Both the position numbers and the translations under genes were made by a program. Below the pieces are notes generated by a model that saw only the letters and a program-made list of their open reading frames with translations, had not been told where the DNA came from and made no database searches. Below, piece after piece: positions 14,370 through 36,594 of a DNA stretch of 64,000 bases; position 1 is the first letter of the stretch, and each line of letters starts with the position of its first letter. Source of the stretch: Terebella lapidaria (Eukaryota > Annelida > Polychaeta > Terebellida > Terebellidae). The stretch spans positions 33,234,423 through 33,298,422 of the forward strand of contig OX424566.1 in assembly GCA_949152475.1 (NCBI GenBank). The letters are read 5' to 3'.

Positions 14370-14431
14370 AGCGGGTCGCGGAAAAGGGGAAATCCGGGAC
14401 CCGGAAGAGAGGACACCCCCATAACCGGCAG

Positions 14432-18060: not shown

Positions 18061-18452
18061 AGTAGTAGTAGTAGTAGTAGTAGTTTATTTCCACAGCATG
18101 TATATAACAAAATAATTATTTTATATATGAAAACAAGACACATTGCTGTGGGGGACAGCACATAGCCAAGGCTGTCTTCCCGTGCTGACCCCATGAAATA
18201 GAAAATAGTACAGTTGTTACAGACATCAATGTAATGATACATTTAGCATACATTCATACAGTATGGCATGGTATGTGCTGCCGTCGATGGGATTTAATGC
18301 GCTGACACGCCAATACCCCCACAACGCGAGAATGACACGAGCCACCTGAGCGCCAAGAGGAGAGCATGAAGCAAGTGGTAGCCGCCCAAGGCCACCACCT
18401 GCTTGACCGGGAAGCGATTTTGAATACAGTTATGGACAAGATCATATATTTT
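18061..18452 (-). other. LINE 3' UTR and trinucleotide tail
   Basis: About 390 bp between the ORF2 stop (18453) and the outer-element junction. It ends in about nine TAC/CTA triplets, a microsatellite-like tail in place of poly(A), as in several LINE groups that use simple-repeat 3' ends. Confidence 0.75.
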
Positions 18453-21145
18453 TCAAAAACATTCATTGCAATATGGGTTATCGCAATTCACCACATTACT
18501 GTAACTATCAATTAACTTACGAGTAAGTGATGATTTCAATACGTTTCTGTTAGAACATGTTCTACAGGACGATTCTAAATTGTTCCATACAAGTCCAGCA
18601 TTGTAAAAAGCACAATTTCGGGAAAAATTGGTTCGAGGGATCGGTAGATGTACACAGTTTTCCTTTCGGGTTCTGCTGCTCGATTGGTGTTGCGGATAGA
18701 ATTGGCGGAACGATACCGGAAGACGATCGTTCAGATAGTCAAAAACAAACAAAGCCGATGTCTGGGTATAAAGATCACACAGTTTGATAATATTGCTTCG
18801 TTTAAATAATGGTTCTGTGTGAGATTTGTATTTAGATTTGGTGATTATTCGGATAGCTCTTTTTTGCAGTTTACAAATTTTCCCTATCGAAGCGCTTTTG
18901 CCCCATGCTAATAAGCAGTAGTTTAAATGGCTATGAATTAACGCAAAATACAAAGTTCGCAATGTGTGGTTCGCAAGAACCTTTTTCGCCTTGTTCAGCA
19001 TATATAAATTCTTGGATAATTTATTACCTAAATACCTAATGTGTTGATTCCAGCTGAGGTTGGGGTCTAAGATTAGGCCAAGGAACTTTGTGTCATTTGG
19101 ACTGGTTATATTGGCACATTCAACTATTGTATCATCAATCTTCAAATCTAATTTTCTTGGGATAATTAGTCTAGTGTTAGGAGTGAAGATCATGTATCTA
19201 GTTTTGCTAATATTCAAGGATAATCTATTTGCCTTCAGCCAATTATTGATTGATCGTAATTCAAGGTTTACTGTGGAGAATAGCCGAGTGAAGTTATTGC
19301 CCGAATGGTATAATGTTGTGTCGTCAGCAAACGACAATATATTGAGAGACGTAGAGTATGGGAGATCATTAATATATATCAAAAATAAAAGTGGCCCGAG
19401 AATTGAACCTTGAGGCACTCCGCTATTCATGGATAGGAGACAAGATTTAGCCCCATTCATATCTACGTATTGTTGGCGTTCAGATAAATAGCTTCGAAAC
19501 CACTGGTTACAGATGCCTCTAATGCCGTAGTGATCCAGTTTGCTTAAAAGTATTTCGTGTGACAGCGTGTCAAATGCTTTACTTATGTCTAGAAAAAGGG
19601 CCAAAGTTACGTCTTTCGTTGGCTTATTATTAGCTTCGCTAATCGCCTTTATGAGATGCATTACTGGGTGAATTGTAGAATGCTTTGGTCTGAAACCGTA
19701 TTGATGTTTTGTAAAAATATCATACTTATTCAAGAATGCAAACACTTGTTTGTATATTATTCTTTCAAGTAATTTACTGAATGCGGGAAGTATACTAATA
19801 GGCCTATAATTTTTTATTTCTTTGTTATCGCCAGATTTGTGAATCGGAACGACTTTTGCAATTTTCATATTCTTGGGAAAGGTCCCGGTATTAATACTTA
19901 AATTAAATATGAATGTTAGGACATCTTTTGTTTGTTGAGTCGTGGCTTTCATTACTCTACATGATATATTATCAAAACCTTGACTTAATTTCGGTTTAAT
20001 TTGATTGGCAGCAGATACTATGTCGGCAGGGGTCACAGCTTGCAGAAACATGCTATTATGCAATTTTTGTGGCATTTGGGCTTGATAGTCATTGTCCGGT
20101 TCACTAATCAAATTACTCAGTTCAGTACTAATGCTCGAAAAATATTTATTAAATTCATTTGCTATCACACTCTGGTCATTTATTTCGATATTGTTGATCA
20201 TGAACAAAGACGAAGTTGATTTGGTGTTTTTCCTATTTATAATTTGATTCAAGATTTTCCATGATTCTTTCAAGTTGTATTTACATGATTCAAGTTTATC
20301 ACTATAATAACATTTTTTAGCAATTCTGCATAGCTTGTTGTATATATCAGTATATTCTTTGTATTTATTGATTTTATCCGGAGTTGGTTTAGCTAATTTC
20401 TGTTTGTGTAGTTTTTGTTTCTTTAGAGACGATATCAAAAGGCCTTTGGTGAACCATGGTTGGTGTTTTACAAATTTACTATTGCTGGAAAATGTCTTTA
20501 TTGGGAATGCTCTATCAAAGGCAGATCTGTATAAATCAGAAAATGTATCATACGCATCGTTAGCACACGTTTTAGTATAGACGGTATCGAAGTTCAACAG
20601 GTTCAAAATATTCGAGAAGTTGTCAATATTCGTTTCATTGAAGCAACGGAATTGCTTGGTTTCTTTCGGAATAGTCCGTTCAGTTTTAATTATTAAGAAC
20701 GTGCCAAAATGATCGGCTACGTCCGTTACCAGTATGCCTGGTAGGATTTCATTCCGAGTTGAACAATTCGTGTATATATGGTCAATGAGAGTGGCCGAGT
20801 GGTCGGTGATCCTAGTTGGTTTCGTAATATGGGGAAGGAAACCATTCGTTATTAAATCATTTAAAAATTCGTTTGTTTTGGAATGCTGTGAATAATTCAA
20901 TAAATTTATGTTGAAATCTCCCAATAATACCAGGCTCTTGTTTTTGTCATTTGCTTCAGTGACAATATCGATGATCGACTGGGTGAAAATATCGAGGTCA
21001 GCTCTGGGTGGGGTGTTCGGGCGGTACACGACACCTACGACGATAGATTTGTTATTTAAAATATCATTAACTTCAACGAATAACGTTTCGATCACATGTG
21101 GTATAAATATCGATAAATCTTGGCGAACCTTGTATTTTATAGTGC
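18453..21145 (-). CDS. LINE ORF2, C-terminal endonuclease part and reverse transcriptase
   Basis: An open frame of about 897 codons. The beginning carries the distal half of an APE-type endonuclease (VVGVVYRPN, LLGDFNINLL, DHIYTN, VADHFGTF). Reverse transcriptase follows, with KVVPIHKSGD, NYRPISILPAFSKLLERII, ALFLDISKAFDTLSHEIL, GVPQGSILGPLLFLIYIND and the catalytic FADDTTLY. The C terminus (DRLPVSFRQFY, LVWNNLESS) is typical of Jockey/CR1-superfamily proteins. The protein nicks target DNA and reverse-transcribes the element's RNA at the nick. The frame is cut at 21145 by the LTR element; the first endonuclease part lies at 32105-32541. No stop interrupts the part seen here. Confidence 0.9.
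21142..21145. other. Target-site duplication of the inner LTR element (left copy)
   Basis: GTGC directly before the left LTR, repeated at 32105-32108 directly after the right LTR. If the LTR is taken one base shorter, the duplication is AGTGC (5 bp). Four bases agree with the GTAT duplication of the outer element. Confidence 0.8.
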
Positions 21146-22041
21146 TGTAACAAAACCATGCAACTGCCGCGCTGAAACGTTCGTTAGGAACGGTCACGTG
21201 ATCTACAAAGTCCACTTGCGAAGACACCGTTCGCGGAAGAACCGTTCGCGGAAGCACGATTGCGGAAGCATCATCAGCGGAAGCATCGTTCGCGGAAGAA
21301 CCGTTCGCGGAAGCACGATTGCGGAAGCATCGTCAGCGGAAGCATCAGTCGCGGAAGCACCGTTCGCGGAAGAGGAGCCTTCGCGGAAGAACCGTTCGCG
21401 GACGCAGTCTTCACCACGTGGAGAAGAGTGCGGAAGATACGTTCGCGGACGAAGATGCGCGCGCAGCCACCCTGGCTATATAAGGGAGAGCGGACGGCCG
21501 CTCTGAGAGCACTGCAACAGCGACATCGACCGTGGGGAGATCGTCACCGCCACAGCCAAGGGACTCGACGAACTCCGTGCGGACGACTCCTTCTTCAGGG
21601 CCTTAGAGTCAACCGGGATTTAGACCGACTACCTGGAGAAACCATTCGACTAAGCGGGACGGGAAACTTCAACGGGAAGGGACAGAGAGACGCCGCCGGC
21701 TAAGAACTCTTTTTAGTTGTGCCCTCGTGCACTATTTATTTTTGAAATGTGATCATACAGTGCTCCATGTCTGAACTTCATATTTGTACGTCACGTGGGT
21801 GACCAGCCATACAATTGTAAGTTGATTTGATGTATATAAATCTTCAATTTATTTACATCTGAGTTGCTTCTTGCCTAAGTGAAGCCGGTGAGCTACGGAG
21901 TGATGATACACCAGCGTTGGGGGACACCAATTTAGTGACGGCTCTCGAATCACAACGAGCGGGAGTTACATAAAGTCTATACGATCAGAGAAACCAGGTT
22001 TTTTGGGCCACACCGAAAACAAGTCATTACCAAACGTCACA
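21146..22041 (+). repeat. Left LTR of the inner element
   Basis: Begins TGTAACAAAACC and ends ACGTCACA. It contains six exact TTCGCGGAAG words and several near copies (about 21230-21400), then a TATA box at 21477-21484. A weak match to a primer-binding site starts with TGGTGCACGTGACC just inside the element at about 22045; I could not assign its tRNA. Confidence 0.92.
21477..21484 (+). promoter_or_regulatory. TATA box of the left inner LTR
   Basis: TATATAAG, about 80 bp downstream of the cluster of TTCGCGGAAG words. The right LTR has the same box at 31540-31547, and a third TATATAAG precedes ORF3. Confidence 0.7.
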
Positions 22042-22105
22042 ACTTGGTGCACGTGACCAGGATCCCCGAGGGTCTACTGCCAGGGAACGAACTTCAGCAT
22101 CACTC

Positions 22106-24664
22106 ATGTCCGGCGAAAACGACGAAACTGCCCCAGGGAAGACAGGAGGTGAAGAGGAAGACTCTTCGCGGACGGCCTCACTTGCGGACGAGGAAGACAG
22201 CGGTTCGCGGAAGCCGACCTTTGCGGAAGAGGGAGACGACCGTTCGCGGAAGACGTTCGCGGAAGACGACCGTTCGCGGAAGACGTTCGCGGACGACAAC
22301 CGTTCGCGGAAGACGACCTTGGCGGAAGAGGCCGACGACCGTTCGCGGAAGACAACGTTCGCGGAAGACGACCGTTCGCGGAAGAGCAGCTTCACAGCCA
22401 GGGGTAGACGGGACGTTTCGACGAGTGAGGAGCAACCAGGGAGGTCGAGACCTTCCATGGGCCAGTCGACTAGTCAACAGAGACCCCGGAGCCAGACACC
22501 CGACAACCGTTTTCTTTTCAGACACGACTCTGGGTGGCAGCACGATCGAGACAGGGAGAGGTCAACCTACCTTGAGAGCGTTAGGAGGGGCCCCGAGTTC
22601 CGACGAGTGCTGGGACCGGAGTACGTCAATCTGGACGGGGAGGACGGCGAAATCTGGGCGAGGAGGGATCGGCTACAGCTACCGGAGCAGAGTCCAAGTG
22701 TGGCACCTCCAGAGAATGCAGCATTGAGACGGCTTTGGGACCAGTCCCAGCAGCAGTCTGGTGCAACAGAGCAGCAGTCTGGTGCAACAGGGCAGCGGTC
22801 GGGTGTGACGAGTCGACAAACGGGAGTGACTGGAGGACGGGTTACTTGGGCTCCGACCCAAGAGAGCAGCTCGAGAGGGAGAGGACTTTTCGCGGAAGAG
22901 AACATTCGCGGACGAGAGGCATTCTTCGGCGACAGGGACGCTTGCAGCCGGGGATCCTTCGTGGATGAACGGGCTCGTGGGCGAGGGGGAGTCTTTGGTG
23001 ACGAGGACGCTTGTGACCGGGGAGGGCCCTTCGCGGACGACCACGTTCGCGGACGAGGACGACTCGCGGAAGAGAGTGTTCGCGGAAGAGAGGAGTCTTC
23101 ACCCAGACGGCGGCTCGACGAAAGGAGTGATCCAGGCGACCAATCTTCCTTTCCAGTTTTTCAGAATAGACGGGGAAGACCATTCGCGGATGAGCCGGTT
23201 CGCGGAAGACTCGCGGAAGATGGCGTTCGCGGACGTGCATCTTTTGTGGAGGGACGTCTCCGAGACATCTTGGCGGACGAGCCCGTTCGCGGAAGACTCG
23301 CGGAAGACGGCGTTCGCGGAAGAGGCCTGTTCGCGGAAGAACTTCTTCGGGAGCTGTTGGCGGAAGAGTCCGTTCGCGGAAGGTTCGCGGAAGACAGTGT
23401 TCGCGGAGGGTTCGCGGAAGACAGCGTTCGCGGAAGAGGGAGGTCTTCACCCAGTCGACAACCGAGACAGCCAGCCTCCTGGAGAAATCCAGCTTCTATT
23501 TCAGTCACCCAGGGAGGCCGGAGACAGCACCCTTTCTCATCATCGGGCGATGAGGGGCCTTCATCTGATGGAGGGACCGACAGCAGCCATGGTTACCCAG
23601 GACGGGGGAGGAGACCACCGAGGCGGGGACCGCCGCTGCACCGACGAAGCCCTAGGCCGAGACGGAGGCAGGAGGACTCGTCGTCCGAGGACAGCACAGT
23701 CTGGAATCAGAACGGCAGAAGGAACCGGAAGATGCTGACCCCTGACAAGTTCGATGGGACTTCCATAGAGTGGCCGGTGTACCGGGCCCACTTTGACGTC
23801 ATCGCAGAGGTCAACGGATGGAGCAAGCGGGAACAGGGCGTCTACTTAGCCGGGAGCTTGACAGGAGAGGCGCGACGAATGCTGACCAGCCTGAGTCCTG
23901 CAGACCGGAGGGACATCGACGTTCTGACCGACAAGCTGACCCTACGATTCGACCCTGACTGTCAGGAGGAGTCCTACAAGGCGACCTTGGGACAGAGAAC
24001 CCGCAGGAAGGCAGAGACACCCCAGCAGTACGGCTATGAGTTGCAGCGACTGGCCGGCCGTGGTTATCCGGATCTGAACTCCGCAGCTCAGGAGGCTATC
24101 GCCTTAGACCACTTCTGGAAGGGCCATCCAGATGGGGACATGAAGGTGATGGCGCTCATGAGGAAGATGAAGACCATGGAGGAGGCCATAGCGTTCGTGA
24201 CCCAGTACGAATGTGTCAAACCCAAGCCTGGGAAGCCGGTGATGTCCATAGAGTCGGAGGACTCCGAGCCAGCTCTAGGACGGGTCCTACAGCTGTTGAA
24301 GAACCAGCAGGGAGGCGAGATTACCACCAGTGGGCAGCAGAGCAACCAGCCGAACGTAGCGGGTCTACCCAGACTTCCCTACTTCAAGGGGCTCTTTGAG
24401 AGCCAAGACAGGAAGCTGGATCGACTAATCGAGCTGTGTGAGCAGGTGCTATCCATCAAGCCGAGGGCCGCCACTGCTGAGAACAAGGGACCAAGCGCTA
24501 GGCCGGGACCAGATGACTGTTGGTACTGTGGGAAGCCGGGTCATCGGAAGTACCAGTGTCCAGATCGGCCGCCACCTCGGACCAAGGAGGAGCGCTTGAG
24601 TCGACTAATCGAGGAGATTGGTGAGCGGAACAGTTTGACAGACGAGGAGTCGGAAAACCAGTAG
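22106..24664 (+). CDS. Gag of the inner Gypsy-type element
   Basis: An 852-codon open frame, long for the family because of low-complexity blocks. Two blocks (about residues 20-95 and 260-460) are built from the 15-bp repeat and read as FAEDDRSRKT or FAEEPVRGR-like strings. The retrotransposon-gag core (FDGTSIEWPVYRAHFDVIAE) lies at about residues 550-700. A CCHC knuckle, CWYCGKPGHRKYQC, lies near residues 805-818. The charged FAE/RSRK blocks precede the core, so the extra length is N-terminal. Part of an element that looks whole. Confidence 0.92.
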   Translation: MSGENDETAPGKTGGEEEDSSRTASLADEEDSGSRKPTFAEEGDDRSRKTFAEDDRSRKTFADDNRSRKTTLAEEADDRSRKTTFAEDDRSRKSSFTARGRRDVSTSEEQPGRSRPSMGQSTSQQRPRSQTPDNRFLFRHDSGWQHDRDRERSTYLESVRRGPEFRRVLGPEYVNLDGEDGEIWARRDRLQLPEQSPSVAPPENAALRRLWDQSQQQSGATEQQSGATGQRSGVTSRQTGVTGGRVTWAPTQESSSRGRGLFAEENIRGREAFFGDRDACSRGSFVDERARGRGGVFGDEDACDRGGPFADDHVRGRGRLAEESVRGREESSPRRRLDERSDPGDQSSFPVFQNRRGRPFADEPVRGRLAEDGVRGRASFVEGRLRDILADEPVRGRLAEDGVRGRGLFAEELLRELLAEESVRGRFAEDSVRGGFAEDSVRGRGRSSPSRQPRQPASWRNPASISVTQGGRRQHPFSSSGDEGPSSDGGTDSSHGYPGRGRRPPRRGPPLHRRSPRPRRRQEDSSSEDSTVWNQNGRRNRKMLTPDKFDGTSIEWPVYRAHFDVIAEVNGWSKREQGVYLAGSLTGEARRMLTSLSPADRRDIDVLTDKLTLRFDPDCQEESYKATLGQRTRRKAETPQQYGYELQRLAGRGYPDLNSAAQEAIALDHFWKGHPDGDMKVMALMRKMKTMEEAIAFVTQYECVKPKPGKPVMSIESEDSEPALGRVLQLLKNQQGGEITTSGQQSNQPNVAGLPRLPYFKGLFESQDRKLDRLIELCEQVLSIKPRAATAENKGPSARPGPDDCWYCGKPGHRKYQCPDRPPPRTKEERLSRLIEEIGERNSLTDEESENQ

Positions 24665-24687
24665 GGCTCATACCAGCCCCCAACCGT

Positions 24688-27600
24688 ATGGGCCATTGGC
24701 AGGTGTGTGCACGGCTTCACAGGCGAGAAGCTCGACGAAGACGTGAAGAACACATTGCCAGGGGGGAATTTTTAGTTTCACAGATTTTTAATAGGTTTTT
24801 CCGGTGTGCATCCGAAGTGACTGGATGGGCGCAGGAGGAGCTTGAGGATCGAATTCTCGACTATTTGGAGGGCAAGCCTGTCAACACAGACGGGAGTGCC
24901 AATGTACAGCAAACCGATGGAGCCGTGGAGCGTCTAATGCCCCGCGGAGACGTCAAGGAAATGCAGACCGATGGAGCCGTGGAGCGTCTAATGACCCGCG
25001 GAGACGTCGACGAAATGCAGACCGATGGAGCCGTGGAGCGTCTGGGGACCCACGGAGACATCAACGAGGTTTCTGCTAGCAGCAAGGAGAACCAACAGGT
25101 TACAACCTTGAGGCTGGAGGCTGCGAAACAGCAGGGACCCCCCTATGCAACTGAACCACAAGCGGCCGTGAAAGAGGAGACGGAGGGCCGGTGGAGCGGA
25201 ATGACCAAGGGGCCAGCGCAGCAGCTATTGCTGGTGGACGACTCATTACTTATCCGGAGCGGCGGTTCCGAGGGGAGTGATTCCCTTAAGACTGACAGAG
25301 AGGACCAGGGTGGTGCATCACTGTGGGTGGACGACTCAGTACTTATCCAGGGCGGCGTCCCTGAGGAGAGTGGCAGCTCTCTTAAGATTGACAGAAATGG
25401 CCAGGTGGTGTCGCTGTCAGCCGGTGCCCGAGGCACATTGGCGTGGTATGCGGCGTGCCACGTTATGGGGAAGGCGACTCGTATGTTGGTGGACACGGGT
25501 GCCTCTTCCACCGTTCTGGACGAGTGTCTCTTCGACCAAATGGATGACGAACATAAAGCAATGATAAGGCAGACGAGAATAAGGTTACGGGCAGCAACCG
25601 GAGACTACTTACAGGTTCAAGGAGAGATGACAGTTCAACTTCTACTGGGCACACGACTCGTGTCGGCAGATGTACTGGTAGCCAAACTAGGGATCCCGGG
25701 AGTGTTGGGGCTTGATGTACTTCAACAGATTGGGGGACAGCTGGATCTGCGTAAGGGCGAGTGGCAGGTGGGCGACACTACCGTAGTGATGAGCTCGGGC
25801 CACGAGGACGCCGTCTACACACTGGTGACGGAGGAGACGGTCGTCTTGCCACCCTTTTCAGAGATGATGGTGGACCTCAAGCTGACAGGAAGTGAGGGAG
25901 GAGTTCCGAAGGCCGGCCTCGTGCAGTCCGCAAGAGAGCCGTTGGAGGACGACCCCCTCGTAGTGGGACGAGCCCTGGTACGACCCCGAGGACGCCTGGT
26001 ACCGGTGGTACTTCTGAACGCCGGCGCTGGAGCTTGCACTGTGCTGATGGGGACCATCCTAGCCGAGCTTCACGGAATAGAGGCCGTGATCGACCTGGGA
26101 TTTCGTCCCGATGGAGGGAAAACAACCCAGAATGAACCTAAAAGGGAACAGTGGTACCGGGAGGAAAGCGGGAGGGAGCATGAGCCCCTTACACCAAACT
26201 CCACCAAGTGGCGGAACCGGACGCCTGAGCAGCCCGAAACCAGAGTGCACGCCATGCACGCAGAATCGTCGACGAAGACACCAGAGTGCCCGGAGCATTT
26301 AGAACCGCTCCTGGAGGGAATGCATCCGAACTTGACGGAAAAGGAGGTGGAGGTCGTCAGCGATCTCCTTCGACGCCACCAGCAGGTCTTTATGGGACCA
26401 GATGGGAGGTTGGGCCGGACGTCCCTGGCGAAACACGTCATCGACACGGGAGATCACCCCCCGATCAAGCAGCCTCTGAGGAGAGCCCCGTACTACCAAC
26501 AAGAGCTGATCGAGGACGAGGTCGACAAGATGTTGAAAGCTGACGTTGTGGAGCCAAGCGACAGTCCATGGTCGTCTCCCATCGTGCTAGTGAAAAAGAA
26601 GGATGGTGCACTGAGATTTTGCGTCGACTACCGCCGTCTAAATGATGTCACCCGGAAGGATGCGTACCCCCTGCCTCGAGTCGACGAGAGTTTTGATACC
26701 TTGTCAGGAGGACGATATTTTTCGACGCTAGACTTGGCTAGTGGTTACTGGCAGGTCGAGATGGACGACAGGGACAAGGAGAAGACGGCGTTCACTACCC
26801 GTAGTGGACTCTATCAATTTAAAGTGATGCCGTTTGGATTGGCGACGGCCCCGGCTACTTTTGAACGTCTAATGGAGCTGGCACTGAGGGGACTCCAATG
26901 GAAGCGTTGTCTAATTTATTTGGACGATGTCGTCTGTCTTGGAAAGACTTTCCAAGAAGCCGTGGACAACCTCGAGGACGTGTTCCGGAGACTGCAGGCT
27001 GCCGGGCTGAAGCTGAAACCCGCCAAGTGTGAGCTGTTTCGACAACAGGTCAACTTCCTGGGCCATGTCGTGTCCGACCGAGGCATCCAGTGCGACCCTG
27101 CCAAGGTCGAAGCTGTAACAAAAATGGTTCCTCCGACCACCTTGACAGAACTAAGGAGCTTCCTTGGGTTCGTGGGGTACTACCGCAGATTCATCCCTGA
27201 CTTTGCCACCCGAGCGGGACCCCTCAACCACCTGTTAAAGAAGGAAGTCAACTACCATTGGAGCGAGGCTCATCAGCAGGCGTTCGAGGCGCTGCGTCAA
27301 CCCCTGACCGAGCACCCCCTGCTGGTGTACCCTGACATGGACCAAGAATTTATTTTAGATACTGATGCTAGCGGCTACGGAGTGGGAGGCGTCTTATCCC
27401 AAGTGCAGGACGGACGAGAGCGGGTGATCGCCTATGCTTCCAGAACCCTGAGGGACACCCAGCGGAATTACTGCACCACCAAGCGGGAGCTCCTGGCCGT
27501 CGTCAGTATGATACACCATTTCAGACATTTCTTGTGGGGGAGAGCGTTCTTACTACGAACCGACCACGCCTCTCTCAAGTGGCTACTGAACTTTCGGGAT

Positions 27601-29760
27601 GCGGAAGGAATGATCGCTAGATGGGCAGCTCGCATCGCCAGCTACGCCTTCAGGTGTGAGGTCCGACCGGGAGTACAACACGGGAATGCAGACGGGATGT
27701 CCAGATGCCGACAGTGCCGGAGACCGGATTGTCCCGCCCCTCGCCACACCACAAGACCCGAAGGAGAAGAGGAGGCCTGTCCGACTCAGGAGGAGTGTCC
27801 CCTACCCCTGGAGGACCTCTCTGACGAGGATCTGCTTCCACCGATCAGCGGAGAAGGATGGAGCCCCGGAGGACCTCAAGTTAACATCTTGCGGGAGGTC
27901 CCTGTGGAGCCCTGGACGGAGGACTACTATTGCGGAGATGGAGTCGGGATATTCCAGATCTGGGAGGTGCGCTGCCAGGAGGACCCGAGGACGACTACCC
28001 AGCCGACCGAGGAATGCCTGCCTGACCGGAGCCCCCCACAGACGGAGGAAGGAGCCAGGAGCGTCTGCAGAACCCTGCATCAGCTCCGCCCCTCTGCCTG
28101 GGTTTGGTTTCTCCTGATGATGCTCCTCGCACTGCATGGTTTGGGACCGGAGGTTGTGGCCGGAGCAGCGATCGGTGCGACGGCCGACGTGTGGATGCGC
28201 TGCCGAGAGGAGCCCTTCCTGGACCCATGCCCCAACCCTGTGCTCCGAGATCCAGACAAACAAATGCTAGCTGTCACGCGGGCTATGGCTACGGGAGGAC
28301 GCCGGAATCCGATGGAGGGAGCCCCGGAGGCCCAGGTCCTGAATGGTTATTCCCAGGAGGACCTAGTGACCCTTCAACGAGCCGACCCTGAAGTTGGAGG
28401 CATCCTCGGGTGGAAGAATATTTTCACTGAGAGACCTGCATGGCCCGAAGTCAGAACAAAAAGTCAGCAAATGAAGACTCTGTGGCAACAGTGGGACCAG
28501 CTGGAGCTACGTGATGGGCTTCTGTACCGGCGGTACCAAGCGGCTTGCCAGAACGCACCAATCCATCAACTGGTCGTTCCACAGGTCCTGAGACGCGCCG
28601 TCATGAAGGAGGTCCACACCGGCAAGCTGATGAGCCACCAGGGAATCACCAAAACAGTCCACCGACTAAAAGCGAGAATGTACTGGCCGGGTATGACGAA
28701 GGACGTGGAGCGTTGGTGCCGGGAGTGCCTGAAGTGTAGTGGGAGAAAGCCGCGACCGGGGCCCAAGTACCACCCCATGGGAAATCTACCGGTAGGCGAT
28801 CGGCTAGAAAGGGTGGCCATGGACATTTTGGAGCCTGGAACGATCACCAATTCTGGGAACCGGTATATACTGGTCGTGGGTGATTATTTCACCAAGTGGA
28901 CTGAGGCCTACGCTCTACCCAACCATGAGGCTCAGACGGTGGCGGACGTCTTTGTGACTGAGTTCGTGTGCCGCCTGGGAATGCCAGCCAAGATACACAC
29001 CGACCAGGGACGAGAGTTCGAGAGTAAGCTTTTCCTTGAGATGATCAAGATCCTAGGAGGGGAGAAGACTCGGACGACCCCTTATCACGCCAAATCAGAC
29101 GGGATGGTCGAGCGATTCAACCGGACCCTGCTGAACCTTCTGGCCGTGGTCGTGGACGAGAACCATGACGACTGGGACGACCATCTGCCCTACGTGATGG
29201 CGACTTATAGAACATCAGTACACGAAAGCACCGGGTGTACACCATTTCGAATGATGATGGGACGGGAGGCAACCACCCCATTGGACCTGAGGTACCGGAC
29301 GAAACCGGACGATTTGGGAGGACCAGTCCCCGAGTGTGCGTCCGAATACGTCGAATGGGTGAAGGAAGCCACCATACAAGCTCACGAGACTGCCCGAGAG
29401 TGCCTGAAGACGGCTACGGTGCGACAAAAGCGCCATCATGACATAAAATCAGCCGCTCGACATTTTCCGGTGGGCACCTGGGTGATGTATTGGTACCCTC
29501 CAAAGGCTAGACCAAAACTAGGACTAGGGTGGACGGGACCTTATCTCGTTGTGAAGTCTCATCTCGGATGGATGGTGTCCATACAAGATCGACCCGGTGG
29601 CAAGATTAAAGATGTCCACATTGACAATATAAAAAGGTGCTGGTTCACCCCTGAAACCGACGCCTGGATACCCAATCCGGACGATGTGACCCCAGTCCGG
29701 ACCCCCAGTGATGACGAGGGACGAGTGGAAAACAGCGGGAATGCAGTCCAAACGATGTAA
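24688..29760 (+). CDS. Pol of the inner Gypsy-type element
   Basis: A 1690-codon open frame that begins 23 nt after gag in another frame. Near residues 75-130 it has three 54-bp repeats encoding TDGAVERLMPRGDVKEMQ-like units. Then come protease (MLVDTGASSTVLDE, about 265), RT (FCVDYRRLN; YLDD about 744), RNase H (DTDASGYGVGGVLSQ, about 888), a hydrophobic stretch (VWFLLMMLLALHGLG, about 1135-1165), the H2C2 zinc finger (about 1309-1350), the integrase core (MDILEPG, HTDQGREFES, DGMVERFNRTL) and a GPY/F-type C-terminal module (GWTGPYLVV). The domain order is Ty3/Gypsy. Gag-pol expression probably relies on frameshifting or reinitiation, as in relatives. Confidence 0.93.
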   Translation: MGHWQVCARLHRREARRRREEHIARGEFLVSQIFNRFFRCASEVTGWAQEELEDRILDYLEGKPVNTDGSANVQQTDGAVERLMPRGDVKEMQTDGAVERLMTRGDVDEMQTDGAVERLGTHGDINEVSASSKENQQVTTLRLEAAKQQGPPYATEPQAAVKEETEGRWSGMTKGPAQQLLLVDDSLLIRSGGSEGSDSLKTDREDQGGASLWVDDSVLIQGGVPEESGSSLKIDRNGQVVSLSAGARGTLAWYAACHVMGKATRMLVDTGASSTVLDECLFDQMDDEHKAMIRQTRIRLRAATGDYLQVQGEMTVQLLLGTRLVSADVLVAKLGIPGVLGLDVLQQIGGQLDLRKGEWQVGDTTVVMSSGHEDAVYTLVTEETVVLPPFSEMMVDLKLTGSEGGVPKAGLVQSAREPLEDDPLVVGRALVRPRGRLVPVVLLNAGAGACTVLMGTILAELHGIEAVIDLGFRPDGGKTTQNEPKREQWYREESGREHEPLTPNSTKWRNRTPEQPETRVHAMHAESSTKTPECPEHLEPLLEGMHPNLTEKEVEVVSDLLRRHQQVFMGPDGRLGRTSLAKHVIDTGDHPPIKQPLRRAPYYQQELIEDEVDKMLKADVVEPSDSPWSSPIVLVKKKDGALRFCVDYRRLNDVTRKDAYPLPRVDESFDTLSGGRYFSTLDLASGYWQVEMDDRDKEKTAFTTRSGLYQFKVMPFGLATAPATFERLMELALRGLQWKRCLIYLDDVVCLGKTFQEAVDNLEDVFRRLQAAGLKLKPAKCELFRQQVNFLGHVVSDRGIQCDPAKVEAVTKMVPPTTLTELRSFLGFVGYYRRFIPDFATRAGPLNHLLKKEVNYHWSEAHQQAFEALRQPLTEHPLLVYPDMDQEFILDTDASGYGVGGVLSQVQDGRERVIAYASRTLRDTQRNYCTTKRELLAVVSMIHHFRHFLWGRAFLLRTDHASLKWLLNFRDAEGMIARWAARIASYAFRCEVRPGVQHGNADGMSRCRQCRRPDCPAPRHTTRPEGEEEACPTQEECPLPLEDLSDEDLLPPISGEGWSPGGPQVNILREVPVEPWTEDYYCGDGVGIFQIWEVRCQEDPRTTTQPTEECLPDRSPPQTEEGARSVCRTLHQLRPSAWVWFLLMMLLALHGLGPEVVAGAAIGATADVWMRCREEPFLDPCPNPVLRDPDKQMLAVTRAMATGGRRNPMEGAPEAQVLNGYSQEDLVTLQRADPEVGGILGWKNIFTERPAWPEVRTKSQQMKTLWQQWDQLELRDGLLYRRYQAACQNAPIHQLVVPQVLRRAVMKEVHTGKLMSHQGITKTVHRLKARMYWPGMTKDVERWCRECLKCSGRKPRPGPKYHPMGNLPVGDRLERVAMDILEPGTITNSGNRYILVVGDYFTKWTEAYALPNHEAQTVADVFVTEFVCRLGMPAKIHTDQGREFESKLFLEMIKILGGEKTRTTPYHAKSDGMVERFNRTLLNLLAVVVDENHDDWDDHLPYVMATYRTSVHESTGCTPFRMMMGREATTPLDLRYRTKPDDLGGPVPECASEYVEWVKEATIQAHETARECLKTATVRQKRHHDIKSAARHFPVGTWVMYWYPPKARPKLGLGWTGPYLVVKSHLGWMVSIQDRPGGKIKDVHIDNIKRCWFTPETDAWIPNPDDVTPVRTPSDDEGRVENSGNAVQTM
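24913..25074 (+). repeat. Three 54-bp repeats at the start of the inner pol
   Basis: ACCGATGGAGCCGTGGAGCG recurs at 24913, 24967 and 25021. In frame, each unit encodes an 18-residue string. It lies upstream of the protease domain. Confidence 0.9.
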
Positions 29761-29767
29761 ACGATGA

Positions 29768-29890
29768 CGGGAGCGTTCGCGGAAGAACCGTTCGCGGAAG
29801 CAGCGTTCGCGGAAGCAGCGTTCGCGGAAGTACCGTTCGCGGAAGCACGTTCGCGGAAGCAGCGTTCGCGGAAGAACCGTTCGCGGAAGC
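29768..29890 (+). repeat. Cluster of eight TTCGCGGAAG repeats between pol and ORF3
   Basis: Eight exact copies, mostly at 15-bp spacing (CG + TTCGCGGAAG + 3 bases). The cluster begins just after the pol stop and ends about 68 bp before an internal TATA box. The same unit fills the promoter half of the LTR and parts of gag. Confidence 0.92.
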
Positions 29891-29957
29891 AAGCGAAAAA
29901 CGTTATTTCGTTCCACGACAATGCTTTTTCCCCCAGATCCCTGGTCCGCGCCTTTTC

Positions 29958-29965
29958 TATATAAG
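29958..29965 (+). promoter_or_regulatory. Internal TATA box upstream of ORF3
   Basis: TATATAAG, 35 nt before the ORF3 start codon and downstream of the repeat cluster. This copies the layout of the LTR promoter and predicts a separate ORF3 transcript with a very short leader. Confidence 0.55.
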
Positions 29966-29999
29966 CAGGCCGGCCTACGATTCCGTCATCACTTCAACC

Positions 30000-31088
30000 A
30001 TGAACACACCAACTCTGCAGATCATTGAGATACCCGCATTTGCAGACGAAGATTTCGGGGACGTTCCAGATTTCGACTTGGCTGACTTTCTGCCCCTTGA
30101 AGTCGACAAGATGAGCGACCCACCTACCAAGCCTGACCGAAAGCGGGAGCGCTCGAGGAGCCGGGAGCGTCGTGAGGAGCCCCGAGGAGGTCGACGGTCC
30201 CCTGCCCGGAAGTTGTCCACCGAGAGAGGGCGACGCTGGTGCAGCCCCTGCCGGATCCACGTGACGGCATCCAACTTTAGCCGACACGTGGCGACCAAAC
30301 ACACGCAGAAGGAGGGGCGGCACCTCTGCAAGATGTGCAGCCAGCGATTCGCCCGCCGAGCTGACAGAGACCGGCATGAGACGTCGCATGCCAGCGGCAA
30401 CACCCTCAAGCCAGGACGGAGGAGGACGACGACCGACACGCCCGTGTCCGACCCCCGAGATGGTCCGACTACTGTGTCTGCCCCTGAGCTGAAGACTGTC
30501 AGCTTTGCGGCCAGCGGGACGACCAGCTCCACGCCGTCAAGCCCCCGGGAGGACGCCCCCAGGTCAGAGGACGCCCCAGACCCCGAGGACGACCCCCCGA
30601 ATAGCGAAGAGGAACCGGAGTCTCAGCAGGAGCGGAGAGAGGCGGAATCCCCGGAGGCCCCCACCCCCGAGGACGACGGACCCCCCGTTCCCAGAGACTC
30701 GGCCCCTACCTACAAGCCCCTAGACCTGAGTTGGTACCTCAAGCCCGTTCCGGAGGAGGAGGACCAACTGCGACCGTATGTGGAGGGCCTGGGCAGAGCG
30801 GTCACTGCCGGAGAGAAGGCCCTGGAGGACCTGGCGTCCACGATAGCCATGGGACGACGCCACCTCACCCAAGCGGAGGCTCGGCTCCAAGCCAAGGAGG
30901 AGCAGAGACAGCTCGAGGCCGAGGTGCTGCAGCTGCGAGGGGAGGCCTCTCAACGAGAGAAGAGCCACCGGAAGGAGCTGCGAGCCCACGTCCGAGAGAC
31001 CAAGCTGCTCCGGGAACAGCTCCGAGCATATACAGACACTCGAGACAGGCTGGCGGAGACGTCCGAAAGCGAGGTGGATCGCCAGTGA
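30000..31088 (+). CDS. ORF3 of the inner element: zinc-finger and coiled-coil protein
   Basis: A 362-codon open frame. The N terminus (residues 1-40) is acidic. A basic Arg/Ser-rich segment follows. Two C2H2-like fingers lie at about residues 81-130 (CSPCRIHVTASNFSRHVATKH and CKMCSQRFARRADRDRHETSH patterns; first finger CxxC-x12-H-x4-H, second a standard spacing). The middle is Pro/Glu-rich. The C terminus (about 270-350) is a Leu/Arg/Glu-rich coiled coil. There is no signal peptide or membrane segment, so it is not an envelope protein. It could be a DNA- or RNA-binding regulator of the element. That is inference from the fingers and the preceding promoter-like repeat cluster. I do not recognise a named family. 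Confidence 0.7.
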   Translation: MNTPTLQIIEIPAFADEDFGDVPDFDLADFLPLEVDKMSDPPTKPDRKRERSRSRERREEPRGGRRSPARKLSTERGRRWCSPCRIHVTASNFSRHVATKHTQKEGRHLCKMCSQRFARRADRDRHETSHASGNTLKPGRRRTTTDTPVSDPRDGPTTVSAPELKTVSFAASGTTSSTPSSPREDAPRSEDAPDPEDDPPNSEEEPESQQERREAESPEAPTPEDDGPPVPRDSAPTYKPLDLSWYLKPVPEEEDQLRPYVEGLGRAVTAGEKALEDLASTIAMGRRHLTQAEARLQAKEEQRQLEAEVLQLRGEASQREKSHRKELRAHVRETKLLREQLRAYTDTRDRLAETSESEVDRQ

Positions 31089-31208
31089 AGTGGAGGGAGA
31101 GAGCCCTGTAAACATCAGACAGGCAGGAAAAGACGAAGAAGGAGGAAGAAGAGAAAAGAAGAGAGAGAAAGGATCAACGGGGACGTTGATCTCCAGAAAG
31201 GGTGGAGT

Positions 31209-32104
31209 TGTAACAAAACCATGCAACTGCCGCGCTGAAACGTTCGTTAGGAACGGTCACGTGATCTACAAAGTCCACTTGCGAAGACACCGTTCGCGGA
31301 AGAACCGTTCGCGGAAGCACGATTGCGGAAGCATCATCAGCGGAAGCATCGTTCGCGGAAGAACCGTTCGCGGAAGCACGATTGCGGAAGCATCGTCAGC
31401 GGAAGCATCAGTCGCGGAAGCACCGTTCGCGGAAGAGGAGCCTTCGCGGAAGAACCGTTCGCGGACGCAGTCTTCACCACGTGGAGAAGAGTGCGGAAGA
31501 TACGTTCGCGGACGAAGATGCGCGCGCAGCCACCCTGGCTATATAAGGGAGAGCGGACGGCCGCTCTGAGAGCACTGCAACAGCGACATCGACCGTGGGG
31601 AGATCGTCACCGCCACAGCCAAGGGACTCGACGAACTCCGTGCGGACGACTCCTTCTTCAGGGCCTTAGAGTCAACCGGGATTTAGACCGACTACCTGGA
31701 GAAACCATTCGACTAAGCGGGACGGGAAACTTCAACGGGAAGGGACAGAGAGACGCCGCCGGCTAAGAACTCTTTTTAGTTGTGCCCTCGTGCACTATTT
31801 ATTTTTGAAATGTGATCATACAGTGCTCCATGTCTGAACTTCATATTTGTACGTCACGTGGGTGACCAGCCATACAATTGTAAGTTGATTTGATGTATAT
31901 AAATCTTCAATTTATTTACATCTGAGTTGCTTCTTGCCTAAGTGAAGCCGGTGAGCTACGGAGTGATGATACACCAGCGTTGGGGGACACCAATTTAGTG
32001 ACGGCTCTCGAATCACAACGAGCGGGAGTTACATAAAGTCTATACGATCAGAGAAACCAGGTTTTTTGGGCCACACCGAAAACAAGTCATTACCAAACGT
32101 CACA
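31209..32104 (+). repeat. Right LTR of the inner element
   Basis: 896 bp, looks identical to the left LTR, including the six TTCGCGGAAG words and the TATA box at 31540-31547. It is preceded by a purine-rich tract (GAAAGGGTGGAGT) that would prime plus-strand synthesis. Confidence 0.92.
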
Positions 32105-32541
32105 GTGCTTTTGATAAAAAGTCCCACACCACCTCTGGGATCATCGCTTTCTGGTCTCGTGTTATACAATAATTCATGGTATCCATTCAGAGACATACGA
32201 CTGTTGATACGAAAACATTCAGTTATGCCTATAATATCGAATGAGAAAGATTCACTGCTCATGTCCGCTATTAAATTATTAAACTTATCCCAATGACTAG
32301 TTAAACCTTGGCAATTCAGTGAAAAGAACGAGAACGATTTTGCATTATGGCTATGAGCGCCAGAAACTAACGGTATGATCTCATCACTAGAATAGTATTT
32401 ACAGTCAGTAAGATTGACAAGCTCATCGTTTTGGTCATGTTCGGTATTAGTATAATCATATAAATGTGCAAAATCATACTGAGCGTCGTTCGCAACCCGG
32501 TCTAGTGTAATACTATCCACCGACATGAGACACGTGCACAC
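32105..32541 (-). CDS. LINE ORF2, N-terminal endonuclease part
   Basis: The open frame starts at 32541 (MCTCLMSVDS; a second Met follows at 32523). It contains the first APE-endonuclease motifs: FFSLNCQGL with the active-site Asn, and IIGITECF with the Glu. It ends at the LTR insertion after DPRGGVGLFIKS. The rest of the endonuclease and the reverse transcriptase are at 18453-21145. The leader before the endonuclease (about 60 residues, acidic) has no known domain. Confidence 0.82.
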
Positions 32542-32920
32542 AAGCGGCGCGAATCATTCCCACGAGGCAGACGGCATGACATGTCCCACAGCACCCCAAC
32601 GACAACAGCACACACATATCCATACAATCAAGTACAACAAAAAATAAAACAAAGATGACATATAACATAAATTGCGGCAAAGATACTACGACTTTCCGTA
32701 GTACGTACATGGCACGCACAAATGAATTGCATAAACATTGCTCGAGGACTCGCTACAGTGTTCCTTATCGATGGTCATTACACGCACACACAATTTCTCA
32801 TACATAATCATTATCATCTTTGTCATTCAAAGTCACAAATATCAAACAAATCATGAGTAGATATATGCAATCAGCTAGTACATTTATGATCAAAGGACAA
32901 AATAGTATTATCTGTGAGTC

Positions 32921-33217
32921 ACATCTCAAACATCCGACCATGCTACCAACATGACAGGCGGGACAGCCCCATGTTCAAGCAGCATGGACAGACGAACGAA
33001 ACGGAACAGTACAATCAGCAAATAGGTAAGCATCTGTGCAAAATAATTGATTATTTCTCAAAAGCATATCAAGTGAAATCACTCCTGATTTTTCTTCAAT
33101 GTCACCTATGACCTGTAATATCTGATGTCGGGGTATGCCCCGGTAACATCTCAAACATCCGACCATGCTACCAACATGACAGGCGGGACAGCCCCATGTT
33201 CAAGCAGCATGGACAGA
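32921..33217 (-). repeat. Pair of 72-bp direct repeats in the LINE spacer
   Basis: 32921-32992 and 33146-33217 are nearly identical (ACATCTCAAACATCCGACCA at each start), 225 bp apart. They lie in the 1.16-kb non-coding spacer between the esterase ORF and ORF2. Function unknown; an internal promoter or translation-control region is possible. Confidence 0.85.
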
Positions 33218-33703
33218 TGCCCGAAACGAACCAGTTCACACCACATACTAATCATTATCTGGCTACCATTATATACAATATTATTACAAGGTATGGGTGA
33301 ATACACACATACACGTGTAAAGAGATACGTACAGTACCGATACGATATAGATATTCTTTATACAATACGGTACTCGTTTATACATTTGAATACAATAATG
33401 AGTATTCAAGGTGCCTGTCTACGAAGTACACCACATTATTGTCGAATTCAACACGCATACATGTACATTATACCAAAGTGCTATAGTTCGTATTAATTAT
33501 GTAAGATGGACATAAATCCGGATGCGCTGATTCTACGACGTATGTCGTACCCATAAGGACAACAGATATTCAAATTATAACCAATAGAGTGAACATCTTT
33601 CACACATTAACATAGAATGAATTCCTGTTTGCATCGGGTCAAATCCGAGAAAGGAAAAAAAAAATCAGACTCAGATAAAAAATTGGTTATATATATCTAT
33701 GCC

Positions 33704-34288
33704 TCAAAACCTTGACCACTCACTTCTTGCAAATGATTTGGTTTCCCCGTGCACGAATCGGGTGGCTTTGAAATTGAATTTCGAAAACATTTGACAAATG
33801 TATTGCTTGAGCCGTTTGGTTCCATCAAAGTTAAGGTGTACTCCGTCGTGGCAGAAATATTTATGGTCAATACCTCCACCCGTTGTGAAAAGTGTATATG
33901 TCTTTACGGAGAAAACGTTATTGTTCCATGTAGGACATTCTAGCTTGATTAGTCTGTTAACTTCAAGGAATTTATCCTTATATTTATCATCGATTCTGGG
34001 GCGAGGGATGAGGGAGGAAATAATTATGACACATTTTGGGTTGATTGATAGAATCGTATTGGTTAAATCACGGAGTTGGGATAGGATATCCGCAGGCGTG
34101 TCAGATTCAACATTATTACCACCACATAGGAGAAAAATAACCTTGTAGGATATTATGATTTCGTGCTTATTCGAGATAACATTTGTTACATTGTTCACTC
34201 GTGCGCCTCTTAAAGCATACACATCTGTGTCATTCACGAATTGTATATCTTTGACGAGAGAGGAGCCAATGACAAGTCTAGACGACAT
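33704..34288 (-). CDS. LINE ORF: SGNH/GDSL-type esterase
   Basis: A 194-codon open frame. The SGNH blocks are visible: block I LVIGSSLVKDI with the Ser at about residue 9 or 10, a Gly in block II (RGARVNN, about residue 28), block III LLCGGNN with the Asn at 58-59, and block V HDGVHLN with Asp148 and His151. The catalytic set looks complete. Esterase domains of this type are known in ORF1 of CR1/L2-group LINEs. Here the esterase is a separate frame 185 bp downstream of ORF1. Its substrate is unknown in the family; lipid or acyl-ester hydrolysis is presumed. How it is translated is unclear. Confidence 0.82.
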   Translation of the reverse strand: MSSRLVIGSSLVKDIQFVNDTDVYALRGARVNNVTNVISNKHEIIISYKVIFLLCGGNNVESDTPADILSQLRDLTNTILSINPKCVIIISSLIPRPRIDDKYKDKFLEVNRLIKLECPTWNNNVFSVKTYTLFTTGGGIDHKYFCHDGVHLNFDGTKRLKQYICQMFSKFNFKATRFVHGETKSFARSEWSRF

Positions 34289-34473
34289 TTTACAAGATGA
34301 TGTTTAGAGTAATTACAAAGAAATATAATGATAGGGCTTCAATAAATGGTTTTTCCTATCAAATCAATACTCATATACATAGTATCAGAAGATATAGAAT
34401 TACATGTGTTAGATATTTGTCAGCTAACAAGTGTACTTGTACATTGTATCTGACTCAACATGAACCAATTTAT

Positions 34474-35664
34474 TCAGGTGGTTGTATTATCTTTGTTGCA
34501 GTCGCTGGTTTCGTCCATTGGAGACTCCTCGTTTGTGTCGCCGACGTCGGACATGATGATTTTACGGACATCGGACAGTACGGCTCCCATCGAGTTATTT
34601 CCCGGCCAGGTATTACCTTTTGATATTGCAGCGCTGGCGGTTACTCCGGTGCCCCAGTACGAGTCGTGTGGGTTGGCTTCGGCAAGGATCTTGTCACCAG
34701 TCTCAAGAAGAACTTTAGCGAGGTAAGTGTTCTGCTTGAATTTCGCTAGAGCGATGGATGCCATACAGTTCAGGGCTTTTATTGGGTTTCCCCAGTCTCG
34801 ATGGCCGAATGATTCGCCAAGTTGTTTCTGAATAGACGGTCGTGTTTCTGCAAGGATCCGGGCTCCGATGTCGGTTTCACCATAGTGCATGGATTTCTTG
34901 TAGAAGAAGGCTTGTTCGACACAGGTGAAACGTAATCCATCAATGACAACTGCAGAGGGGTAGAAATTGGAGAACGGGCTACTCAGTCCATAGAAGTATA
35001 AAGTGTCATCACTTTCCGTACAGCCGACCACTGCTTGCAGAGCTTCAGGTAAGTGAGACAATGTCTCCACTGTGTATGACTTTTCTTTAACGATTAGTCG
35101 GTCTTGGGTCAGGTATGTATCGTTATACTCCTCAGATTCCCTCGCGAAGTTTACAATTTGCTGTAGAACTTTTCTTTTTGAGTCTATTTCTAGGGGGAAA
35201 ACTTGTTTCAGGCGCATTGGAGCAGATAGATCACTGCGAGCTTTCCAGGCAAGGTTTCGGTCCTGCAGATGAAAAAAGATCACTTCTATCGGACGAATTT
35301 TGCCTTCGGTGTAGCGACCCTGACGGTATGCTTGCACAATTGATCTGTCGTCATGTGGGACACTAATTGAGTTTAGTATCGATGCGATACGCTGCTTAGG
35401 ATTTTCTTTCCGTTGTTCTGGAACGTTGATGAACTGTAATTTATGCTTGCAATCGTCTTTTTCTAACGTAGTGACTCTATTTTCAAGCATCACTTGTTTG
35501 TTTTGTAAGACGTTCAGTTGGAGTTTCAGATTCAAATTTTCGGCTTGGGTGTCACACAATTTGTTTTCAAGCGCAGTCAATTTTGTAGAATTGTTCTCAA
35601 TCGTGGCCTGGATTCTGTCAATTTTGTTGAGCAGCTTGTCAAGTTTTTCGTCAATTGTCGCCAT
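34474..35664 (-). CDS. LINE ORF1: coiled coil, RRM-like segment and C-terminal NADAR domain
   Basis: A 396-codon open frame from ATG at 35664. Residues 1-70 are a heptad-rich coiled coil (LLNKIDRIQATIEN...LENRVTTLEKD). Residues about 73-145 resemble the RNA-binding RRM of L1-type ORF1 proteins (LQFINVPEQRKENP, VQAYRQGR, RPIEVIFF, AWKARSDL). Residues about 222-370 carry a NADAR/YbiA-like domain: LYFYGLSSPFSNFYP, CVEQAFFYKK, ALAKFKQN, LLETGDKILAEA, SYWGTGV and MGAVLSDVRKI. The NADAR family includes YbiA-type N-glycosidases and enzymes acting on ADP-ribosylated molecules. The fused domain keeps the conserved E250, D334, W337 and G338 positions as I align them by eye. The first two modules would bind LINE RNA; the NADAR role is unknown. 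Confidence 0.82.
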   Translation of the reverse strand: MATIDEKLDKLLNKIDRIQATIENNSTKLTALENKLCDTQAENLNLKLQLNVLQNKQVMLENRVTTLEKDDCKHKLQFINVPEQRKENPKQRIASILNSISVPHDDRSIVQAYRQGRYTEGKIRPIEVIFFHLQDRNLAWKARSDLSAPMRLKQVFPLEIDSKRKVLQQIVNFARESEEYNDTYLTQDRLIVKEKSYTVETLSHLPEALQAVVGCTESDDTLYFYGLSSPFSNFYPSAVVIDGLRFTCVEQAFFYKKSMHYGETDIGARILAETRPSIQKQLGESFGHRDWGNPIKALNCMASIALAKFKQNTYLAKVLLETGDKILAEANPHDSYWGTGVTASAAISKGNTWPGNNSMGAVLSDVRKIIMSDVGDTNEESPMDETSDCNKDNTTT

Positions 35665-36009
35665 GCTGAATGTTTACAATGTGTATTACCTGTGTGTTTA
35701 TTGGAGCGTGTTCGTCGGCCTCGAGAGAGCACTTGTTGTAGATCGATATTGAATGTTCCGCTGACCGTGTCCAAAATGACCACTTATTGCCCATATAGTT
35801 AGTGTTATCCAAGATATTCAAAGCATATTCCGACAACAAGGAGTATTATATTCCCATTTTTAACACATCATTATGTCCACCAGTGTTTCCCATCCATGTC
35901 CCGATATTCACAGTTCACATGGTGTGCAAAAAATAACTGAAAATCACGAAAATCCTCTGTGCAATTCGAAACGTGTTCACGCAGCCTTCGCCATAGACGG
36001 TTTCGGTCC
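35665..36009 (-). other. LINE 5' leader
   Basis: About 345 bp between the ORF1 start codon and the junction with the outer element. No motif recognised. The exact 5' end is uncertain by about 15 bp, because no target duplication is visible. Confidence 0.55.
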
Positions 36010-36594
36010 GTTGTACCGTTGGCGATGGCAGCTTACCGGAGTACCCCGCAGGAGACAACCGGGCAGAGTCCCAACTTGCTGATGCTGGGCAGAGAAGTCA
36101 ACACTCCGGTAGAGTTACTGATTGGCAGACCGCCGGGAGAATCAACAGCAGAAGTAACAGAGTATGGCAGTCAGCTCCGGGAGCGACTAGAAGCGGTATA
36201 CAAGGCGGTTCGAGCGAAATCTGGCAGAGAAATGGAACGGCAGAAGAAGCTGTACGACCGGAGGAAGGTCGACAATCAGTTCCAGCCAGGAGACCGAGTG
36301 TGGATGGCGGTCAAAACACGGAAGAAGGGCAAAGCTCCCAAGTTGCAGAGGAAGTGGAGCGGTCCAAAGCTAGTGCTGAGCAGATTTACCGACGTGACCT
36401 ACGAGATTGCAGAGAGTGAAACTCGACAGAAGGTGGTTCACTTCGATTTGCTGAAACCGTATAATGGTGTCAAGCATCCGAGATGGATGAAGCGGAGAAT
36501 GGCGGATTCCTGGAGGCAGACGGAGCCGCCGAAGCAGAGTAGTGTTCCGGAGACGGAACAGACGGTCTCTGAGTCGGATACGGACTCGGAGTAA
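36010..36594 (+). CDS. Pol of the outer element, part beyond the LINE insertion
   Basis: The open frame continues the C-terminal end of a Gypsy integrase: LAMAAYRSTPQETTGQSP, LLMLGREVNTP, then FQPGDRVWMAV and a GPK/GPY-type module (KWSGPKLVLSRF, VVHFDLLKPYN). It ends in an acidic/Ser tail at 36594. This is the distal piece of the pol gene split by the LINE. Confidence 0.88.
   Translation, partial: VVPLAMAAYRSTPQETTGQSPNLLMLGREVNTPVELLIGRPPGESTAEVTEYGSQLRERLEAVYKAVRAKSGREMERQKKLYDRRKVDNQFQPGDRVWMAVKTRKKGKAPKLQRKWSGPKLVLSRFTDVTYEIAESETRQKVVHFDLLKPYNGVKHPRWMKRRMADSWRQTEPPKQSSVPETEQTVSESDTDSE

Follow-up and report, generated by a model that had tools for sequence, protein, structure and literature searches.

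Does the NADAR domain that closes the ORF1 frame of a LINE in the annelid Terebella lapidaria belong to the working protein of this retrotransposon and, if so, on what could it act? The locus lies in a stretch of 64,000 nucleotides that was analyzed as a whole (the window). A preliminary description had read one uninterrupted frame as a LINE ORF1 protein with a coiled coil, an RRM-like segment and a C-terminal NADAR domain, an observation that is confirmed by Pfam profiles, the predicted fold and structure matches. The ends of the LINE were set by comparison with its copies L021–L024, yielding the following features:

18062..35994, minus strand: whole LINE, 5' end at 35994 and 3' tail at 18062, split at 21147–32103 by a nested LTR element
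34474..35664, minus strand: ORF1, 396 aa, with coiled coil, RRM, CTD-like part and NADAR
35449..35661, minus strand: coiled-coil helix, ORF1 residues 2–72, from the secondary structure of the predicted model
35020..35448, minus strand: RRM and CTD-like part, residues 73–215
34555..35001, minus strand: NADAR domain, residues 222–370 (Pfam, E 4.5e-31)
33704..34288, minus strand: putative SGNH/GDSL hydrolase ORF, 194 aa, from a PF13472 profile match and residue alignment
32104..32553, minus strand: N-terminal part of ORF2, start of the APE endonuclease (tblastn with the L021 ORF2)
18453..21146, minus strand: remainder of ORF2, endonuclease and reverse transcriptase (tblastn, 98% identity to the L021 ORF2)
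18062..18085, limits approximate, minus strand: 3' tail of trinucleotide repeats, (ACT)n on the element strand, the same tail as in L021–L024
21147..32103, plus strand: nested Gypsy-type LTR retrotransposon, not part of the LINE, which splits ORF2; its 894-bp LTRs are 100% identical and it is flanked by the 6-bp target duplication AGTGCT

ORF2 is contiguous with ORF1, and downstream of it, in copies L021 and L022. The ORF2 of L022, a sister copy that aligns to the window in two blastn blocks of 98.7% and 99.3% identity, matches RVT_1 (6.4e-34) and Exo_endo_phos (1.6e-9) in a profile search. By the endonuclease and reverse transcriptase (RT) of its ORF2, the window element is an APE-type non-LTR retrotransposon. 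A 4–6 bp repeat, ambiguous with the tail, flanks the 5'-truncated copy L024 as a candidate target-site duplication; none was obvious by eye around L021–L023.

The surroundings of the LINE were inspected as well. The nested Gypsy-type element is young and contains gag, pol, arginine/serine-rich tandem peptide repeats and a 362-aa ORF at 30000–31088 that shows C2H2-finger-like words and matches nothing in Pfam at 0.001. The LINE itself landed in the integrase gene of an older Gypsy element (13092–18061 and 35995–36594, plus strand), whose pol holds about eight tandem copies of the short repeat VAVAVTEKAASRKP; L024, of the same LINE family, also lies inside the integrase gene of the same kind of Gypsy element, at another site. 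Elsewhere in the window, a 319-aa open frame at 58912–59871 (minus strand), with Thr/Ser-rich repeats and, by eye, a short C-type lectin-like end stretch, may be a host gene exon.

The assignment of residues 222–370 to NADAR holds. In the Pfam profile search, the window domain scores 108.7 bits against PF08719 (curated cut-off 35.1), its predicted fold is YbiA-like, and all 23 aligned ORF1s match the profile at E 0.01 or better. This alignment comprises the window, 15 further genome loci and 7 database proteins, the others being 24–61% identical to the window. Upstream of NADAR, the protein has the coiled coil, RRM and CTD layout of LINE type II ORF1s (L1 ORF1p), from which it differs by the extra C-terminal domain. 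Re-alignment of Foldseek's best 1000 structure matches gave L1 ORF1p trimers whose matches start at residues 28–31 of the window ORF1, with 17–18% identity to the human trimers. The family profile Transposase_22 (PF02994) was absent from the matches listed at E 1 for the window protein, and from the 25 of 27 families listed at 0.01 for the 23 aligned ORF1s. Sequence and fold model together thus describe a probable LINE-1-type RNA-packaging protein with a YbiA-type NADAR, a family of ADP-ribose N-glycosyl-hydrolases, at its C-terminus, where a corresponding activity may be expected.

We compared the active site of the domain with the ADP-ribose complex of the P. nicotianae NADAR (8bau). Residue roles described in section 12 of PMC11543638 were mapped by hand via a HMMER alignment of 8bau, with a constant offset of 2. 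Seven ADP-ribose-site residues, E250, K257, K280, W291, E329, D334 and W337 (E43, K50, K75, W89, E125, D130 and W133 of 8bau), are invariant in 23/23 ORF1s, a count to be read with the choice of loci in mind, which fell largely on open frames and so favoured intact active sites. They make up 7 of the 11 side-chain contacts named for the complex and include three positions tested by catalytic mutation: a change at E88, K95 or D171 disables the C7 NADAR (PMC11543638), and these positions are unchanged in kind in all 23 proteins, as Glu, Lys and the YbiA-type Glu. Both superfamily-wide residues, the Glu and Lys at E43 and K50 of 8bau, and the E125 position are thereby kept as E250, K257 and E329. 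The remaining four contacts are not: R79 corresponds to E284 in the window and varies (K in 9, E in 6 and R in 3 of the 23), the positions of Y84 and R93 are free to vary (H288 and A297 in the window), and D86 falls in a gap. In the literature consulted, none of these four is given as defining NADAR. A catalytic core that is kept alongside a ligand periphery that is partly not leaves room for a substrate other than that in 8bau. At the E125 position, the YbiA subfamily has Glu, BC4488/DarT1-linked NADARs have Asp and phage NADARs have His (PMC11125620). E329, present in every aligned protein, places the ORF1 NADARs with the YbiA subfamily; the BC4488/DarT1-linked type is ruled out by the same residue.

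In columns occupied in 18 or more rows, invariance is found at 21 of 147 positions of NADAR, 4 of 145 of the RRM and CTD part and 0 of 70 of the coiled coil; no other part of the ORF1 protein is as conserved as NADAR. The ORF1 matches at least 106 places in the 762-Mb genome, with 99% to 27% identity, 82 of them without an in-frame stop (105 of 1012 candidates were scored, and some places are pieces of one copy). The NADAR model alone finds at least 150 places, all above cut-off (150 of 973 candidates scored), and the ORF1 layout is common to the 7 database proteins at 26–52% identity. Nei-Gojobori dN/dS between families is mostly saturated, and a codon model was therefore used, on trees from fast searches made separately per partition. 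For 17 ORF1s, omega is 0.078 for NADAR and 0.064 for RRM and CTD; in three clades, the respective pairs are 0.113/0.103, 0.070/0.049 and 0.074/0.075. Fixing omega at 1 (with kappa at 2 in the neutral model) costs 112 to 551 log units. Purifying selection on NADAR is about as strong as on the RNA-binding part. The preliminary description had proposed selection across copies as a check on the domain: with omega at about 0.1 or less, neutral decay is excluded for the aligned lineages, and a domain with a significant profile match, selected in many copies, is neither spurious nor confined to a single locus.

Three NADAR places were also noted. At G000:C5:32043952-32048213 (plus strand), a single RT place is preceded by two NADAR matches on one strand with 3.4 kb between them, which may reflect a duplication of the ORF1 region. 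Five near-equal matches within 37 kb at G000:C6:12340190-12377586 (minus strand), four of them in shorter 240-aa frames, form a tandem array or a possible domesticated copy. The match at G000:C8:827568-828002 (minus strand) is part of an 812-aa open frame, the longest among the NADAR matches listed.

To which LINEs does this ORF1 belong? RRM and NADAR trees give the same main groups, namely A (window, L026, L031, L032), B (L033–L035, L037, L038, L040) and C (L041–L044), with weak support at some forks and with the long-branch rows L039 and L045 of unsure place. The ORF2 tree conflicts with these groups. There, the window family joins L044 (support 100/100; 46% identical), far from L026, to which it is 61% identical in ORF1 and 70% in SGNH but only 27% in ORF2; L026 in turn joins L033 in ORF2 (56% identical) but not in ORF1. 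The conflict is significant at an AU p of at most 1e-4 in 6/6 tests, some of them on groups named only after the trees had been seen: three groupings taken from ORF1, and a subset of one of them, are rejected by the RT data (four tests, AU p 1e-4 to 1e-75), as are two RT-based groupings by the ORF1 data (AU p near 1e-57 and 1e-59). The RT tree implies four changes of ORF1 type, the minimum conceivable being two, and at least two exchanges are therefore needed. The ORF1-NADAR gene, which in some families is directly followed by an SGNH gene, acts like a cassette that can be exchanged and has been coupled to different RT lineages. NADAR-ORF1s occur on at least two deeply divergent RT lineages in the ORF2 tree. 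A single LINE clade defined by the fusion, as the preliminary description had envisaged, is ruled out by this conflict, and the fusion is not wholly undescribed either (PMC12477816); what stands of that proposal is the fusion itself.

The two RT groups also differ at the start of ORF2. In group II, a hydrophobic leader and a 2A-like motif, GD[V/I]xxNPGP, open ORF2 in L026, L031, L033, L035, L037 and L040; the motif is degenerate in L034 and L041 and absent from group I (window, L044), while L032 and L039 were read as fragments that lack the ORF2-start part. In L026, L033, L037 and L040, the leader carries a QYR word and precedes, with its 2A-like motif (GDVESNPGP and alike), the endonuclease. 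Such an arrangement suggests ribosome skipping or signal-sequence use. Both lineages contain a GVPQGS.LGPLLF motif, which may mark them as CR1/L2/Jockey-like rather than L1/Tx1-like. 2A-like motifs are known in non-LTR elements (PMC4981915). Among group I RT relatives, at least 8 of the 44 places scored (from 12984 candidates) have a listed NADAR upstream, that of the window lying across the nested insert; absence at the other places is uninformative.

Whether NADAR joined ORF1 once was addressed with trees that include stand-alone NADARs and 19 of 80 viral loci. The best tree puts clade C (L041–L044) and L045 among stand-alone and viral NADARs. Holding the fused NADARs together was rejected in a first test (AU p 6e-6), in which P0008 was counted as a stand-alone protein; as P0008 looks like a 5'-cut LINE ORF1 (69% identical), it was dropped before the second test, as were the long branches P0015 and P0007, a fused ORF1. 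With 22 fused NADARs held together versus 24 others, a single origin of the fusion is not rejected (AU p 0.066). In the viral contigs, matches cover NADAR and hardly anything beyond it, the frames being 150–290 aa long in most cases, and no ORF1-like NADAR fusion was seen in the best 80 of 244 matches.

The gene behind ORF1 merits separate consideration. The window SGNH matches PF13472 at E 4.8e-7 with 30.9 bits, just under the cut-off of 32.9, and S9, N58, D148 and H151, presumably the SGNH catalytic blocks, are invariant in 4/4 aligned sequences, two of which are from one family. An SGNH match lies 25–668 bp downstream of NADAR on the same strand at no fewer than 36 of 168 NADAR places, where chance would give about 0.02; copies of the same family were counted apart, and 127 of 132 SGNH rows were used. 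The other 132 NADAR places have no SGNH within 1.5 kb among the matches listed, and tblastn with the window SGNH found nothing in L033–L041 and L046. Since the paired SGNHs include families only about 31% identical to that of the window, the pairing is either ancient or has arisen more than once. The nearest functional precedent is the esterase ORF1 of ZfL2-1 and other CR1/L2 elements, likewise an SGNH hydrolase encoded upstream of endonuclease and RT (PMC3905857, PDB 4c1b) and proposed there to bind membranes. Unlike in ZfL2-1, the SGNH studied here is a separate ORF behind the NADAR ORF1 and not an ORF1 domain, and it matches 4c1b at E 0.025 only, with a better match to PAF acetylhydrolase (1fxw, 1.6e-4).

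Parts of this picture have been described before. NADAR is reported in ORF1 of several Tx1 LINE families of C. gigas and in a Gypsy lineage of Ectocarpus, with a suggested role in RNA processing (PMC12477816); the former share with our element a NADAR in a LINE ORF1, the latter a NADAR in a retrotransposon. As far as its available text goes, that report does not analyze selection, active site, anatomy or RT linkage in the oyster LINEs, whereas the NADAR-ORF1s studied here sit on two deeply separate RT lineages. YbiA and the P. nicotianae NADAR (2b3w, 8bau) lack the fusion to an RNA-binding retroelement protein and differ in the four contacts named above. Exchange of whole ORF1s between RT lineages was described for the Jockey superfamily and CR1/L2 LINEs, with 5'-truncated insertion into another LINE proposed as the route (PMC4120745, Metcalfe & Casane 2014); its ORF1 types I–V are, in the text available, without NADAR, and the cassette exchanged here can include a second gene, SGNH. 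We did not find the active-site and selection evidence for NADAR-ORF1s, their linkage to two RT lineages or the NADAR-SGNH cassette in the literature searched, which was mostly open-access, and earlier descriptions may exist.

What could the domain act on? NADARs remove ADP-ribose from guanine in DNA (PMC11543638, PMC11125620, PMC11833690) and are the only hydrolase family, among those tested in PMC11833690, to remove it from guanine in RNA. N2-guanine DNA ADP-ribosylating activity has been found in six edible clams, with CARP-1 in one (PMC11209040). Given this chemistry and the clam activity, the simplest reading is an eraser tethered to the ribonucleoprotein, for which substrate, activity and host writer are all inferred. 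ORF1p would coat the element RNA and thereby hold NADAR in cis on the ribonucleoprotein, where the domain would clear guanine-linked ADP-ribose from the template RNA, from the cDNA or from target DNA that has been nicked. Left in place, these modifications would block reverse transcription or synthesis of the second strand. Their source could be foreign toxins or a guanine ADP-ribosyltransferase of the host, for which the clam CARP-1 is no more than a lead. That the ORF1 NADAR, as part of an exchangeable cassette, cleans guanines of the element's own nucleic acids in this way is our preferred reading, held tentatively and with slightly more doubt than belief. It has to accommodate the four contacts that are not kept, a NADAR omega slightly above that of RRM and CTD in 3 of 4 sets, the lower activity of E. 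coli YbiA on guanine-ADPr RNA compared with the DarT1-linked C7 NADAR (PMC11833690) and a literature that describes as unclear what NADARs do outside DarT operons (PMC11125620).

The same YbiA-type site (E329) and the four lost contacts suit a different, soluble substrate. NADAR might hydrolyze NAD-derived signals or reactive metabolites, such as cyclic ADP-ribose-like molecules or riboflavin intermediates, and so blunt a host immune signal, with ORF1 a mere route of expression; viral and above all phage NADARs were proposed to prefer soluble ADPr derivatives (PMC9503650), and E. coli YbiA acts on riboflavin intermediates (PMC11543638). An enzyme of this kind has no need of an RNA-binding partner, yet RRM and NADAR are fused in 23/23 proteins (partly by construction, as the searches ask for both) and their trees agree for the main clades, leaving this explanation rather unlikely. 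Proteins as targets, be it ORF1p and ORF2p or host restriction factors of the PARP type, seem distinctly unlikely to us: the characterized macromolecular substrates are guanine-linked ADP-ribose in DNA and RNA, with no demonstrated protein substrate in the accessible text of PMC11543638, PMC11125620 and PMC11833690, and the PARP-type target raised in the preliminary description is accordingly not the best supported one. The seven invariant ligand-contacting residues would equally serve a domain that binds rather than cleaves, recognizing ADP-ribosylated or NAD-capped nucleic acid or damage-site chromatin and guiding packaging or insertion; binding alone would not predict that catalytic positions stay in every aligned protein while several contacts outside them drift, and we think this very unlikely. 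In-frame stops at 24 of 106 places would fit a decayed passenger without function, or an accidental fusion with a host gene by read-through. Against 15 further genome loci and 7 database proteins with the fusion, omega of about 0.1 or less and seven invariant site residues, this last explanation is scarcely credible and, for the aligned lineages, is refuted by the many divergent copies, the selection and the invariant site.

The active-site core has been kept by selection, and this hints that such LINEs may defend their own nucleic acids against chemical attack or repair the damage; a counter-restriction role of the ORF1 NADAR is an inference. The furthest-reaching version of this idea would hold that guanine ADP-ribosylation of nucleic acids serves the host lineage as a defence against mobile elements, and that a diverse guild of LINEs answers with a ribonucleoprotein-tethered eraser, passed between unrelated LINEs as a counter-defence cassette, partly with SGNH, in a eukaryotic counterpart of the bacteria-phage DarT1-NADAR conflict. 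As a whole, we regard this version as unlikely.

What NADARs do in eukaryotes, including animals, is described as unclear (PMC11125620), and retrotransposons offer a concrete setting in which to find a role: their NADARs form a large set that is under selection and in part young. An ORF1-NADAR gene that moves between RT lineages, partly together with SGNH, makes modular LINE evolution with an accessory enzyme testable, beyond RNA-binding folds alone. Retrotransposon NADARs point to a possible level of transposon control that works through ADP-ribosylation of nucleic acids.
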